From Dehalococcoidales bacterium (GTDB lineage: Bacteria > Chloroflexota > Dehalococcoidia > Dehalococcoidales > RBG-16-60-22): 38,682 bases of DNA. Positions 31,716 through 37,795 of the stretch are shown here, piece by piece (the first letter of the stretch is position 1; every line of letters begins with the position of its first letter). The notes under the pieces were generated by a model. That model was not told the origin of the DNA. It did no database searches and was given only the letters and a program-made list of their open reading frames with translations. The position numbers and the translations under genes were made by a program. Where the stretch lies: positions 1 to 38,682 of the forward strand of contig JAFGHK010000058.1 in assembly GCA_016930185.1 (NCBI GenBank), given 5' to 3'.

Positions 31716-32891
31716 ATGAGTGAGAAAGAAATCGCCCTCCGCTACGGTTTCAATCCCCACCAGAAACCCGCCCGGATTTACGTTGATAAAGGGACTTTGC
31801 CGTTCAGGGTGCTTAACGGCGCCCCGGGTTATATCAACATGCTGGACGCGCTTAACTCCTGGCAGCTTGTTAAAGAGCTTAAAGAAGCCCTCAATTTACC
31901 TGCCGCAGCATCTTTCAAGCATGTAAGCCCTGCCGGAACTGCCGTGGGCGTGCCTCTTTCCGATACCATGAAAAAAGCCTGTTTCGTCGATGACATGGAG
32001 ACGTCGCAGCTGATGGCCGCCTATGCCCGTGCGCGCGGGGCCGACCGCGTTTCGTCTTACGGCGACTTCGCGGCTTTGAGCGATACCGTGGATGTGGCCA
32101 CCGCCAGGCTAATCAATAGGGAAGTCTCCGACGGTGTTATCGCCCCCGGCTATGAAAAAGCGGCGCTGGATATTCTCAAGGCGAAGAAGGGCGGCAAGTA
32201 TTTGGTAATCGAAATCGACGCCGCTTACACACCGGGAGAATCGGAAATCCGCGAGGTCTTCGGAATTAAGTTCGAGCAGAAACGTAATAACGCTGCTGTC
32301 ACCACCGAAATGCTAAAAAACGTCGTCACGAAAAAGAACGAGTTTCCCGCTGACGCCGTACGCGACCTAATCGTGACCACAGCCGCTATTAAATACACGC
32401 AGTCCAACACCATTGGCCTCGGCGTGGACGGGCAGGCCATCGGCATCGGCGCCGGACAGCAGTCGCGCATTCACTGCACCCGTCTGGCTGCGGAAAAAGC
32501 AGACCGCTGGTTCCTGCGGCAGCATCCCACCGTCTTAAGTATCAAATTCAAACCGGGCGTGCCGCGCGCGGAAAAGAACAACGCCATCGATTTGTACCTG
32601 CAGGAGCGACAGAACCGCTTCGAAAAAGAAAACCTGGCAGCCGCCATGGAAAAAGTCCCACCGCCCCTTACCTACGAGCAGAAAAAGGAGTGGCTGGGAA
32701 AACTTAAGGGTGTTTCGCTGTCGTCCGACGGCATGATACCCTTCCGCGATACCATCGACCGCGCTTATGAGAGCGGGGTGGCTTATGTCTTGCAGCCCGG
32801 CGGCTCCATCCGCGACGAAGATGTAATCAAGGCCTGCGACGCTTACGGTATGGTCATGGCTTTCTCCGGCGTCAGGCTGTTCCACCATTAA
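31716..32891 (+). CDS. Standalone AICAR transformylase (PurH C-terminal domain)
   Basis: Formylates AICAR with 10-formyl-THF in purine synthesis. The 391 residues cover only the transformylase half of PurH. The catalytic Lys-His is in SFKHVSPAG (66-74), and [37 protein letters not shown] and the C-terminal [10 protein letters not shown] segment are typical. The N-terminal IMP cyclohydrolase domain is absent, so another gene must supply it. AGGAG precedes the ATG. It is placed between selA (41 bases) and selB (19 bases), an unexpected partner for Sec genes. Confidence 0.92.
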
Positions 32892-32910: not shown

Positions 32911-34761
32911 ATGTTCGTACTGGGCACCGCCGGCCATATCGACCATGGTAAATCGGTGCTGGTTAAAGCGCTGACCGGCATCGACCCCGACCGCCTGCGT
33001 GAGGAAAAAGAGCGCGGCATGACCATCGACCTCGGTTTTGCTTGGCTCAAGCTCCCCAGCAATCGTGAGGTCGGTATCGTTGACGTCCCCGGCCACGAGC
33101 GTTTTGTCAAGAACATGCTGGCTGGAGTGGGCGGCATCGACCTGGCTTTGCTGATAATCGCCGCCAACGAGGGCATCATGCCCCAGACCAAAGAACACCT
33201 CGCCATCCTCGACCTTATCGGGGTGAGGCATGGTGTTGTCGCTATAACCAAAAAGGACCTGGTGGACGAGGAACTATTAACGCTGGTGCGTATGGAGGTG
33301 GAGGAGCTTATCGCCTCAACTACCATCGCCGGAGCGCCCGTCGTGGCGGTGTCCGCCCTGAACGGCGAAGGCCTTCCGGAGCTTCTAAGCGCCATCGATG
33401 CCCAGCTTGATAAAACCGAGCCGAGAAAAGACCTCGGTCGTCCCCGCCTTGCTATCGACAGGATTTTCACCATCGCCGGCGCCGGCACGGTCGTCACCGG
33501 CACGCTTATAGACGGCACGCTTACCGTGGGGCAGGAAGTGGAAATCGTCCCCTCCGGCCTGAAGTCGAGAATACGCGGACTCCAGACGCATAAATCCAAG
33601 GAAGAGGTCGCTACCCAGGGCAGTCGCGTGGCGGCGAATCTGGTGGGCGTAAATACCTCTCAACTCACCCGCGGCGATATAGTCACTGTCCCCGGATGGC
33701 TTAAACCGGCCAGGATGGTGACGGCTAATCTCAAGCTAATCGACTATCTTAAGCGCCCCCTGCGCCATAACACCCAGGTCAGCTTTCACACCTTGGCGGC
33801 GGAAACCATGGCTAAGGTGCGCCTGCTGGAGGGCGACGAGCTCAAGCCGGGCCAGTCGATGTGGGCGCAGTTGAAGCTGGAAAAACCGCTGGCGATTATC
33901 AACGGCGACCGCTTTATCATTCGCTCGCCTATGGAAACGCTTGGGGGAGGCGGCATCGTAGATGTGCGCGCTAAACGACTCCGCCGTAATCGACCCGATA
34001 TAATAAATAATCTCAAGGCGAGGGAGGGCGGCACCAGCGAGGAGTTAATCATGGCGCTGCTGGAAACCAGACAGCCGCTGGAAGCCTCCGCCGTGGCGGC
34101 GCAGGGTAATATCGCCAAAGATGAAGCTCAAGCTGCTATTGAATCCTTAATCGGGCAGGGGAGGATTATCGCCCTCGGTGAGGGTGAGCGCCGCCTGCTG
34201 CTAACGGCCGCTGGCTGGAAAAACCTTAAGGATAAGGTCTTATCGGCGCTTAAGGATTATCATAAAAAGTACCCCATGCGACCCGGCATGCCCCGGGCGG
34301 AATTCGCCACGCGCCTGAAGCTGGGCGGCAATATCGTCCTTGTGCTGGATAATCTCGTCAAGCAGGGGAGTATCGTGGAGGAGGCAGGTAATTTACGCCT
34401 CCCGTCCCATGCCGTCAGTCTCACTCCCGCCCAGCAGGGCAAAATTGATGCCTTTTTGAAGTCTCTGGCCGCCAGCCCCTTTGCCCCGCCCTCTGACCTT
34501 ATCCCGGAGCCGGACTTGCTCAACCTGCTGGTGGCGCAGGGTAAAGCGGTCAAGGTCAGCGATAATGTAGTTTTTTCCGCTAAGGCTTATAATGAAATGG
34601 TAAACAAGATTACCGCGCGAATTAAAACTAAAGGCAAGATAACCCTCGGCGAGGTGCGGGATATGTTCGGGACCAGCCGCAAGTACGTCCAGGCCCTGCT
34701 GGAGTATCTCGACCGCGAAAAAATAACCCGGCGCGTCGGCGACGACCGCGTGCTATACTGA
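32911..34761 (+). CDS. selB: Selenocysteine-specific elongation factor SelB
   Basis: Delivers Sec-tRNA(Sec) to UGA codons marked by a SECIS hairpin. The 616 residues match E. coli SelB. The EF-Tu-like part has GHIDHGKS (8-15), [12 protein letters not shown] (58-69) and TKKD (113-116), followed by beta-barrel domains with [10 protein letters not shown]. The C-terminal winged-helix repeats (about 380-616), including [24 protein letters not shown], would bind the SECIS. GGGGTGA precedes the ATG. It is third in the selA unit, with uspA 21 bases downstream. Confidence 0.96.
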
Positions 34762-34782: not shown

Positions 34783-35250
34783 ATGTACACTAAAATTCTG
34801 GTGCTGCTGGACGGCTCGAAAATCAGCGAATGCGTGCTCCCTTACGTGGAGTGGTTTATGAAGGTGTCCAAACTTGACGAGGTGGTCTTTCTAAAGGTCG
34901 AAGAACCTCTGAAGATGCCGAGGGGCATGGAGACCGCTGTGATTCCGGAAAACCGCGAGCGTATTGAAAAGGACGCTAACAAACTGGCGATGGAATACCT
35001 GGATGGAATCGTCGCCAGGTTTAAAACCCGACGCAAAACTAAGGTACGCCCCATGGTGCTTAGGGGCAAGCCCGTTGAAGTAATTGCCGACTATGTGACC
35101 CGCGGGCAAATCGACCTGTTAATTATGGCTACTCACGCTTACTCCGGAGTGCAGAAGTTTTTCAGCGGCAGCACCGCCGACCATATTATCCACGCCATCA
35201 CCGCCCCCATCTTCCTCGTCACCCCCAAAGATAGACCCCCGGATAAGTAA
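34783..35250 (+). CDS. Universal stress protein (UspA family)
   Basis: A 155-residue Rossmann-like alpha/beta protein with the family start YTKILVLLDGSKISE and end APIFLVTP. The ATP-binding loop is partly kept: MATHAYSGVQKFFSGSTADHI (about 125-145) has the final GS but lacks the first Gly of GxxG. GGAGAGG precedes the ATG. It is probably the last gene of the sel unit. Its TAA stop forms the first bases of the 13-bp repeat that borders the AT-rich island. Confidence 0.9.
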   Translation: MYTKILVLLDGSKISECVLPYVEWFMKVSKLDEVVFLKVEEPLKMPRGMETAVIPENRERIEKDANKLAMEYLDGIVARFKTRRKTKVRPMVLRGKPVEVIADYVTRGQIDLLIMATHAYSGVQKFFSGSTADHIIHAITAPIFLVTPKDRPPDK

Positions 35251-35260
35251 TCTGGCGGGA
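35248..35260. repeat. Left copy of the tRNA-Sec 3'-end repeat (att-like)
   Basis: TAATCTGGCGGGA is repeated exactly at 37170-37182, where it covers the CCA end and last acceptor bases of tRNA-Sec. A CCGGA also precedes both copies (35239-35243 and 37163-37167) with a spacer of four or two bases. Confidence 0.7.
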
Positions 35261-35315
35261 TTATAAGTTGATTAGTTATGTGATATTACATCTCTATATT
35301 TTTTTATAATATAGT

Positions 35316-36431
35316 TCATTTAGGCGGGTGATTTGGTACCCATTCCATAGTGCCTTTGCCTTTTGGAATAAGCTGGTAAATATTTGGTGCTTCTAAAACA
35401 GTATAGGGTATCTGTTTTTTTGCAAGCGGATTATGGTAAATATCCAATGACCCTGCTGGTTCTTTTGTCCATTTGTGGTGCCATACCCCCACTGTGCTCA
35501 ATCTTTTGCGTATTGTCTTCTGAACAACACCCTGCAAGTCATAGTGAATAGAGGAATCTGTATCTATTTGTTGCTTAATTGTATTTGGTTCCGTATACAA
35601 TCTGTATGTAACCTTCGGAAGACTAAACATTGCAGCCATCATTGAAGATTCATCTAAGCCAACCCATTCTGTACTGGCAACTACTACTAGTGTTGGCTGA
35701 TTATCTGGTAGCTGACTTAAGGCACCGTCTATTACCTCTATTACACGCTCGTGTAGGTTACTGAAGCCTCCAGAGATATGGTCACATCCGGTAGGAATAT
35801 CGTTTTCAGATAACCTTGTGAATCCTACCAAGACCTTGACATTACTGCCGTCTTCAGTATTATCTTCAAAAATCAACTCCTTTTGTTCACCTTCTTTTTT
35901 TAGTTCTTTTTTTAGATAAGATATCTTGCGTTCAAGCCAAGGACGAAAATGTCTGGGTACAATATCGCATTCTAGCTTTATAAATTCGACACATATGATA
36001 AAAGGAGAATTAATGCCATGAGATATTTCACGAAGTATGTCCCAATTGTTGTCCCGCTTACGTTCTTCTAGGGACGTAAAAATTGTTTTAACCTCTACAA
36101 ATATCGGTTCATATTCTTTTAGTACTATTCTAAATTCGCCGATATGTGAATCACGACCAAGTGGATGCCAGTCAATATCACCAAGATTAGACAAGAATTC
36201 ACATATAGCTAACTCATGGATTGCACTACGAAATTGGTCGTTATCTTCATTTCTTAATCTAGCAAGCATTTCGGTGTCTAATATTCCTTGATTTTTGGCA
36301 AATTCTAACAACCTATTTACGCAATTTCTGTTGTCTTCCGCTTTTACATTTTCACAAAACATCCAACGACGCCAATCACCCGTGGATAAATTCACTAATG
36401 TTTCACTTGGGAAAATGTCATCAAAGTGCAT
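35316..36431 (-). CDS. Unknown protein with a possible PD-(D/E)XK nuclease core
   Basis: A 371-residue soluble protein, much more AT-rich than its neighbours. E73 in a helix (SAIHELAICEFL), D94 and E113-V-K115 (PIFVEVKTIF) have the order and spacing of a PD-(D/E)XK nuclease site. From about 200 on there is a mixed alpha/beta part (VKVLVGFTRL, PTLVVVASTEW) that I do not recognise. No Shine-Dalgarno or promoter is clear. It lies inside the island at tRNA-Sec, so a defence-like or selfish role is possible but unproven. Confidence 0.55.
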   Translation of the reverse strand: MHFDDIFPSETLVNLSTGDWRRWMFCENVKAEDNRNCVNRLLEFAKNQGILDTEMLARLRNEDNDQFRSAIHELAICEFLSNLGDIDWHPLGRDSHIGEFRIVLKEYEPIFVEVKTIFTSLEERKRDNNWDILREISHGINSPFIICVEFIKLECDIVPRHFRPWLERKISYLKKELKKEGEQKELIFEDNTEDGSNVKVLVGFTRLSENDIPTGCDHISGGFSNLHERVIEVIDGALSQLPDNQPTLVVVASTEWVGLDESSMMAAMFSLPKVTYRLYTEPNTIKQQIDTDSSIHYDLQGVVQKTIRKRLSTVGVWHHKWTKEPAGSLDIYHNPLAKKQIPYTVLEAPNIYQLIPKGKGTMEWVPNHPPK

Positions 36432-36454
36432 TTATATTGCCACTCTAACTGGTA

Positions 36455-36491
36455 AATAGTCTGATAGTAGTTTATGGGAGTCCAACCCACC
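36455..36491 (-). pseudogene. Decayed copy of the tRNA-Sec 3' end
   Basis: Bases 36455-36491 align without gaps to 37168-37204, the CCA, acceptor 3' strand and T-arm of tRNA-Sec, with 28 of 37 bases identical. The last 18 (36474-36491) have one mismatch. Seven of the nine changes replace G or C by A or T. It is in direct orientation, 713 bases from the native gene, and fits an older, mutated attachment site. Confidence 0.6.
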
Positions 36492-36519
36492 ATAGACGCC
36501 TCTAACGCCCCTATATCAT

Positions 36520-37026
36520 TCACGCTACGGATAGCTTCACCTCTTCATTCAGTGAACGGCGGTCGGCTACTTCCAGGGATACCTGCAATTTCCACTCGGC
36601 ATCCCTCTTAAAGGCTGTTTCAAAGCAGACATTCCATTCTTTGGTTATGCCGGCGGGGAATGTTTGGTTTTCAGCCAGTGACTTGTCTTCATTGCCTAAC
36701 GTGATTTCATTAAAGTGTGTACGGTCGGCCATTATGCTTACACTTCTCCAGCTGTCAGGGCCGGTCTGTACACGCGCTATCGTAGGTTCCTTCGTAGTAT
36801 ACTTTTCATACTTCACTCCCCACAGATGTACCGATAATGAGGCGGATTTGATTTCTTCATGAGTGGTAAGTCTCATCTTAAATGGTGGCAATATTTCGCC
36901 GTCGGGGACCGTCGTCTGCGGTTGGATTTCTAGAGTCACGTTAGGTTTACTTAAGCGTTTGGGGTTCTTGACAGCATCTTTTAAAAAGTCTATCAATTGC
37001 TCGATATCCCACGTACTTATACACAT
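36520..37026 (-). CDS. Unknown 168-residue protein in the tRNA-Sec island
   Basis: A soluble, mostly beta-predicted protein: a short N-terminal helix (IEQLIDFLKDAVKN), then alternating strands such as NVTLEIQPQTTV, SASLSVHLWGVKY, EWNVCFETAF and WKLQVSLEVADR. It has no signal peptide, TM segment or motif I recognise. GGTGA lies six bases before the ATG. It is not obviously coupled to the nuclease-like gene, which lies 88 bases further on the same strand beyond the decayed tRNA fragment. Confidence 0.5.
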   Translation of the reverse strand: MCISTWDIEQLIDFLKDAVKNPKRLSKPNVTLEIQPQTTVPDGEILPPFKMRLTTHEEIKSASLSVHLWGVKYEKYTTKEPTIARVQTGPDSWRSVSIMADRTHFNEITLGNEDKSLAENQTFPAGITKEWNVCFETAFKRDAEWKLQVSLEVADRRSLNEEVKLSVA

Positions 37027-37051
37027 TTTAATTCACCATTGGGCCTTAACA

Positions 37052-37127
37052 GCCTCATTATTTCAAACAACAACTATATATCCGTGGCACAACACATGTC
37101 AAGCTATGCGGCTATCAATAATGAGGC
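37052..37127. repeat. 11-bp perfect inverted repeat at the island's right end
   Basis: GCCTCATTATT (37052-37062) and AATAATGAGGC (37117-37127) are exact inverted copies with 54 bases between. They lie between the island gene and tRNA-Sec and could be arm-type recombinase sites or ends of a tiny insertion. Confidence 0.45.
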
Positions 37128-37166
37128 AAAGGTGCTTTGCAGTTCCCGAACCAGGGGATGGTCCGG
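37126..37166 (-). terminator. Two hairpins just past tRNA-Sec
   Basis: On the minus strand, first an 8-bp stem with one G-T pair (37146-37153 with 37159-37166, loop five), then a 6-bp stem with a 3-base loop (37126-37140) followed by CTCATTATT. They probably end tRNA-Sec transcription, but could be part of the recombination site. Confidence 0.45.
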
Positions 37167-37174
37167 AAATAATC

Positions 37175-37268
37175 TGGCGGGAGCGCATGGGAGTCGAACC
37201 CACCGAAGGCTTTTATGCCCCCCAACGGATTTGAAGTCCGCGAAGCCCACCGGGACTCATCCGCTCCC
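37175..37268 (-). tRNA. selC: tRNA-Sec (anticodon TCA), CCA encoded
   Basis: A 94-base gene including CCA, near the 95 of E. coli selC. The anticodon loop CTTCAAA gives anticodon TCA, reading UGA. The extra-long variable arm (GGGGGC, loop ATAAAA, GCCTTC), a long acceptor and a T-arm with GTTCGACT are all typical. Acceptor: GGGAGCGG pairs with GCGCTCCC over seven positions, but the eighth is a G-G mismatch, which is odd. The 3' end lies within the 13-bp repeat (37170-37182). The minus-strand orientation differs from that of selA and selB. Confidence 0.95.
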
Positions 37269-37312: not shown

Positions 37313-37795
37313 TCAAAAGGGGTTTTTACCCCCTATCTCTTTCAACACCGCCCCCACCAGCTCCGGCAGCTTTGCCTCAAGCCTGGGTGAAAGCTCCATG
37401 CCCCAGTCGATTTCCGCCGGCTCGATGCCGATAATTACTGTCTCTTTAGGTTTGTTGCCGGTCATCTCCATCAGCTTCAGGTTCTCAACCACGCCCATTT
37501 CATGCGCCGATGTCAGCGTGCCCCTGCTCGCCTCTAGCTCCTCCGGCTTAAAGCGGTAAATCTCGCCCGCCTCGCCCCCCGCAGTAGCGCAGTCGATGAT
37601 AATCATCTTGTCCCCGGCTTTGGTGTAGGCAATCAGGTCCGGCGACGTGCCTCCGTCCACCAGCTTAACGTCTGCGGGCAGGTCCATCTCCTGCAGCGAC
37701 CTTATAGCGTGGATGCCGACCCCCTCGTCCTTTTGTATCAGGTTACCCACGCCGATGACGACTACCCTGGGTGTTTTCTCTTTCATATTATCCAC
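37313..37795 (-). CDS. Hydrogenase maturation endopeptidase (HyaD/HybD/HycI family)
   Basis: Clips the C-terminal peptide of the [NiFe]-hydrogenase large subunit after nickel insertion. The 160 residues show the fold signature GVGNLIQKDEGVG (15-27). Nickel-sensing residues E24, D68 (IIIDCA) and H98 (TSAHEM) match HybD E16, D62 and H93. VDGGTSPDL and IGIEPAEIDWG are further family marks. The start is GTG at 37795, directly after the hypE stop; ATG at 37786 is equally possible. Its hydrogenase substrate is outside the window. Confidence 0.9.
   Translation of the reverse strand: MDNMKEKTPRVVVIGVGNLIQKDEGVGIHAIRSLQEMDLPADVKLVDGGTSPDLIAYTKAGDKMIIIDCATAGGEAGEIYRFKPEELEASRGTLTSAHEMGVVENLKLMEMTGNKPKETVIIGIEPAEIDWGMELSPRLEAKLPELVGAVLKEIGGKNPF

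Follow-up and report, generated by a model that had tools for sequence, protein, structure and literature searches.

A variable slot between tRNA-Sec and selB in a Dehalococcoidales bacterium, probably a repeated target of small integrative elements

Introduction

How did a 1.9-kb, AT-rich segment carrying two unfamiliar genes come to lie directly behind a selenocysteine tRNA gene (tRNA-Sec), and did it arrive there as a single element? The question is raised by a 38,682-nt stretch of DNA from a Dehalococcoidales bacterium (assembly GCA_016930185.1, contig JAFGHK010000058.1), here called the window, on which all coordinates, strands and tRNA positions of this islet are numbered. The islet lies between tRNA-Sec and usp and contains two open reading frames (ORFs), ORF371 and ORF168. 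We consider it likely that tRNA-Sec is a recurrent landing site that holds two stacked cassettes here, with ORF371 most likely encoding a PD-(D/E)XK nuclease of probable anti-phage function.

Boundaries of the islet and a third tRNA end

An earlier note on this DNA, drawn from the letters alone, had proposed one mini-island bounded by a 13-bp copy of the tRNA 3' end, and what it had read directly from the sequence was borne out. The 13-mer TAATCTGGCGGGA occurs in two exact copies (Table 1), with no further exact copy anywhere in the window. The right copy consists of the final 8 nt of tRNA-Sec plus 5 nt of flank, the left one overlaps the usp stop codon, and the repeat grows to 16 nt (94%) when one mismatch is allowed. 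An exact match of at least 13 nt to the tRNA 3' region within 2.5 kb downstream was obtained in one of 2000 dinucleotide shuffles, and one of at least 12 nt in about 0.5% of them. The segment between the copies (35261-37169), rightly described as AT-rich, has a GC content of 0.402 versus 0.535 in the remaining window and is the lowest-GC 1.9-kb stretch of the window. Codon usage is also atypical: ORF371 shows the poorest codon fit of 32 ORFs, with a third-position GC content (GC3) of 0.31, and ORF168 the fourth poorest. Compared with tRNA-targeted islands in general, the islet immediately follows an intact tRNA gene on its 3' side, is atypical in composition and has a direct repeat at its far boundary, yet one that includes only 8 nt of the tRNA. 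As had been remarked before, no integrase is present in the slot. Acquisition at an intact tRNA-Sec agrees with the ARAGORN and Rfam calls, with the composition and with the different content in relatives described below; the idea of one single island fared less well.

A third copy of the tRNA-Sec 3' end (36473-36511), missed earlier, was found between the two genes. In a repeat search, 36454-36491 resembled 37167-37204 (76% over 38 nt), and on the minus strand 36473-36511 is identical to the tRNA-Sec of two relatives, genomes G029 and G030, at 35 of 39 positions. The alignment score is 58; dinucleotide-shuffled versions of the islet (200 in all) reached no more than 32, and the window's own tRNA-Sec gives 31; the BLAST E-value against the relatives' tRNA-Sec is about 1e-9. 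The variable arm of this copy (att2) is of the type of other genera, unlike the short arm common to the window genome and G003. All three copies, att2 included, have the orientation of tRNA-Sec. Because the third copy stands between both genes, the slot is interpreted as a tandem stack. Its order reads as tRNA-Sec, ORF168, a decayed foreign-type tRNA-Sec 3' half, ORF371, a 13-bp tRNA end and usp, so that the islet probably represents two stacked cassettes and not one island.

Table 1. Features of the islet and its flanks, numbered on the window
Feature	Position	Strand	Description	Method or remark
selB	32911..34761	+	faces tRNA-Sec; the interval between them is the variable slot in relatives	
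usp (PF00582)	34783..35250	+	conserved flank; G003 87% identical	
att3	35245..35260	-	displaced tRNA 3' terminus TCCCGCCA plus native usp-side flank; exact 13-mer 35248-35260	
ORF371	35316..36431	-	PD-(D/E)XK-like protein, putative distal-cassette cargo; E73, E99, E113 and K115 by position	
att2	36454..36511	-	decayed third copy of tRNA-Sec 3' half, between ORF371 and ORF168	repeat search, alignment, BLAST
ORF168	36520..37026	-	putative cargo of tRNA-proximal cassette; predicted beta-rich, low confidence	
promoter-like site	37073..37102	-	TTGACA-18-TATAGT, 11/12, upstream of ORF168	matches the consensus only; no enrichment over shuffles in this region
att1	37167..37182	-	flank plus tRNA 3' end; exact 13-mer 37170-37182	repeat comparison
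tRNA-Sec	37175..37268	-	intact, CCA encoded; putative integration target, att1 side	ARAGORN and Rfam RF01852 (78.8 bits)
hycI-type gene	37313..37795	-	hydrogenase maturation protease, conserved flank	

Variation of the slot among relatives

The slot was surveyed in 15 genomes with tRNA-Sec and selB on one contig, the genes being named by inspecting translations. In these genomes tRNA-Sec and selB face each other at distances of 770 to 8586 bp, with differing genes between them: G005 has plsY-like genes and an AT-rich ORF, G007 a SnoaL-like ORF, G036 a rhodanese and a transporter, G006 an AT-rich 2.8-kb segment, and G011 a branched-chain amino-acid transporter. Other cargo than that of the window was recognized in G003, G005, G007, G011, G025 and others. 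This comparison across relatives, suggested by the earlier note, gave different content between the flanks, and ORF371 was found in none of the 30 other genomes of the family. Extra tRNA-Sec 3' copies of about 34-65 nt exist on the same contig in G007, G006, G019 and G036, and such copies are located at contig ends in G013 and G029. To judge from these sequences, small integrative elements have repeatedly settled between tRNA-Sec and selB, a site that seems to be refilled with different genes in relatives. The occurrence of the 13-mer in G005 was considered as a further tRNA copy and rejected, as it sits in a plsY-like duplication.

In G021 (C167), G008 (C18), G023 (C159) and G028 (C1), a contig breaks off at the 3' portion of tRNA-Sec or inside it. 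Such ends are as expected if strains differ at tRNA-Sec, and they hint that this site varies between strains or contains repeats.

Integrases and the proposed order of events

In G029, a tyrosine integrase gene (L074:3104-3997; PF00589, E 3.8e-23) starts at, and reads out of, the tRNA-Sec 3' end. Another contig of G029 carries a terminal 68-bp copy of the tRNA-Sec 3' end followed by DNA that is 97% identical to the sequence directly after tRNA-Sec in G030. From the 68-bp copy and the shared DNA behind it, G030 therefore represents the empty site and G029 the filled one, the one pair in which an exact empty site was recognized. Fragments of G029-type integrases remain downstream of tRNA-Sec in G006 (in frame, with an internal deletion), G052 (N-terminal), and G010 and G012 (both C-terminal). 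Relatives of the G029 integrase at E 1e-25 or better exist in 41 of the 393 genomes of the class; at nine of 30 loci examined (L150-L179) the integrase runs in the direction of a tRNA whose 3' end is no more than about 115 nt away; these include a locus of G248, from another family, where the integrase adjoins tRNA-Sec.

We propose that such elements would recombine into the 3' part of tRNA-Sec, leaving the tRNA intact and pushing the old 3' end outwards, and that the integrases would be lost afterwards, with one- or two-gene cassettes remaining. In the window, the ORF371 element would have come first, displacing the host tRNA end and its native flank (att3, whose flank GATTA matches the usp side of G003), so that the tRNA would have ended in a foreign 3' half; with the arrival of the ORF168 element this foreign half would have been displaced in turn (att2, since decayed) and a host-like tRNA restored. 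Under such a two-step integration the distal copy should be host-type and the middle copy foreign-type, and this is the pattern seen. Two successive integrations, in the order that we infer, are the most economical reading. Since the window has no integrase, we can only infer that a tyrosine integrase was the agent and that the cassettes entered by this route.

The genes of this integrase family, which extends across the class, frequently begin at tRNA 3' ends or run out of them in frame (Sec, Leu, Lys, Phe and Met). In the window's own genome (C97), a weak integrase scrap is present about 1 kb downstream of tRNA-Arg (L137:153-229 and about 1206-1310), and that locus is possibly another old tRNA integration site.

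Gene content of the islet

Close homologues of ORF371 are encoded in G244 (70% identity) and G316 (68%), and distant ones show about 25% identity. In six homologues E73, E113 and K115 are invariant and position 99 is E or D, and the predicted helix-strand order (model mean pLDDT, the predicted local distance difference test score, 76) fits the alpha-beta-beta-beta-alpha-beta core of PD-(D/E)XK proteins. Neither ORF371 nor ORF168 has a significant Pfam or PHROG match, nor did a PDB profile search with ORF371 yield one. The list in PMC10952713 places PD-T7-1 and PD-T7-5 among the PD-(D/E)XK anti-phage proteins, and distant members of the ORF371 family match the C-terminal part of PD-T7-5 (E 1.4e-7 and 1e-4). 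ORF371 itself matched PD-T7-5 at E 0.019 over the C-terminal 33 residues only and is not assigned to that family. The aligned C-terminal stretch lies at a similar distance from the end as in PD-T7-5 and PD-T7-1, whereas the N-terminal part of ORF371 has no detectable sequence relation to them. From the conserved residues and the model, ORF371 is most likely a PD-(D/E)XK nuclease, and probably acts against phages. The neighbours of the G244 homologue include DUF1828, a ribbon-helix-helix protein and a HerA ATPase, and those of a G201 homologue include FRG and DUF4062 proteins. The unnamed PD-(D/E)XK-like family that ORF371 represents provides a candidate defence protein. A link of the cargo to selenocysteine decoding or anaerobic respiration, suggested in the earlier note, found no support, and no Sec-specific function was supported.

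In G316, which belongs to a different family from the window genome, the ORF371 homologue (L102:9325-10643) lies about 125 bp behind a tRNA-Ala without encoded CCA. Its congener G284 (L143/L144) has the same tRNA-Ala with CCA, followed by the same transporter gene and no ORF371 homologue; the end of the G316 tRNA-Ala has no clear directly repeated copy. The argument for transfer of ORF371 is based on its patchy distribution and composition, and not on the identity of its homologues: 68-70% identity as sole proof was rejected, because GatB of G316 and G244 is 67% and 62% identical, respectively, to that of the window genome. A broader idea, which we hold to be rather unlikely, is that the tRNA 3' ends of this lineage are shared parking places for single-gene cassettes that lack an integrase, among them a nuclease gene that would move between tRNA-Sec and tRNA-Ala, mobilised in trans by the class-wide integrases that start at tRNA 3' ends.

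A first scan of genome contigs gave no match, and an alignment scan gave five Dehalococcoidia/Chloroflexi records, which to judge from length and match are apparently contigs already hit in the genome search. Distant ORF371 homologues directly adjoin carB in three genomes (L103, L105 and L106), in one of which, G313, the homologue is located between carA and carB.

No homologue of ORF168 was found in the 392 other genomes of the class, and its single-chain model is of low confidence (pLDDT 46).

Alternative explanations

Several observations weigh against two stacked integrations. The distal repeat contains just 8 nt of the tRNA and has a sharp edge, compared with 34-68 bp in relatives, and the window slot has neither an integrase nor a fragment of the G029-type family. 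The two G029 contigs are not joined, the intervals of G011 and G025 hold ordinary metabolic genes without repeats, and ORF371 has no significant structural match in Foldseek. The congener G003, the nearest relative (usp 87% and selB 91% identical), keeps the order selB-usp-tRNA-Sec-hycI, with a spacer of about 280 bp between usp and tRNA-Sec versus 1.9 kb in the window. This spacer contains a 56-codon ORF with weak likeness to a LITAF zinc ribbon, the tail of which, as read by eye, recurs directly after selB in G002. Given this recurrence, the ancestral arrangement may have resembled that of G003, with the islet perhaps taking the place of its spacer, and simple insertion at a bare usp/tRNA junction is thus unproven. 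An exact empty junction, in which the tRNA end abuts usp and the join would be GCTCCCGCCAGATTACTTATCC, was not found. With the G003 spacer in view, the earlier claim that usp was originally the direct neighbour of the tRNA is not supported.

The strongest alternative is accordingly a one-step replacement, in which illegitimate or homologous recombination put an imported AT-rich segment in place of a G003-like spacer, with the 13-mer as a short end homology and not an att site. It is kept alive by the shortness of att3 and the presence of the G003 spacer, as well as by the recurrence of that spacer's ORF tail in G002 and the lack of an integrase. However, it accounts neither for the foreign-type middle copy of the tRNA-Sec 3' end nor for the fact that four to six relatives carry such tRNA-Sec copies, and we judge it unlikely. 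Gene turnover in an ordinary variable intergenic region without site-specific recombination, the repeat being a coincidence, would suit the intervals of G011 and G025. It is very improbable in view of the shuffling results (one in 2000 for the 13-nt repeat, none in 200 for the third copy), and is already disfavoured by the integrase and 68-bp repeat at the G029 tRNA-Sec, with its congener G030 empty. A phage satellite (the earlier note had thought a satellite possible) or a transposon remnant would fit a small, AT-rich islet beside a tRNA, but is hardly credible, as satellite or phage marker genes were not found, neither gene has a significant Pfam or PHROG match or relatives in viral contigs, phages or plasmids, and the only candidate terminal inverted repeat is one unconvincing 16-nt pair (81%) away from the ends.

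Relation to known islands

The islet, with its two putative stacked cassettes, is a good, fresh example of tRNA-targeted islands, a kind already known. Islands at selC (tRNA-Sec) occur in enterobacteria, where those of E. coli are well known (PMC6174562), and share with the window the tRNA target and variable cargo behind its 3' end. The present case differs in lineage (the named homologue-bearing records are Dehalococcoidia), in the size of the cassettes (about 0.7 and 1.2 kb), in the lack of an integrase and in that tRNA-Sec faces selB. In Dehalococcoides, presumably of the same class, islands are described at tRNA-Ala, Val and Lys and at ssrA in passages of two reports (PMC2764846, PMC3146451), and repeated tRNA 3' fragments mark them as well. 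In contrast to the window, tRNA-Sec is not among the targets named in those passages, and the ssrA islands described there are larger than the window cassettes and use serine recombinases. Searches of the open-licence literature turned up no account of tRNA-Sec serving as a target in Dehalococcoidia. The single tRNA-Sec gene facing selB seems to be a repeated integration site in this anaerobic lineage, in which stacked tRNA ends, decaying integrases and the intact integrases of relatives together would form a fossil record of integrase loss with the cargo kept.

In the flank beyond selB, the gene at 31716-32891, between selA and selB, has PF01808 (AICAR transformylase/IMPCHase) as its sole match and occupies the same place in G003.
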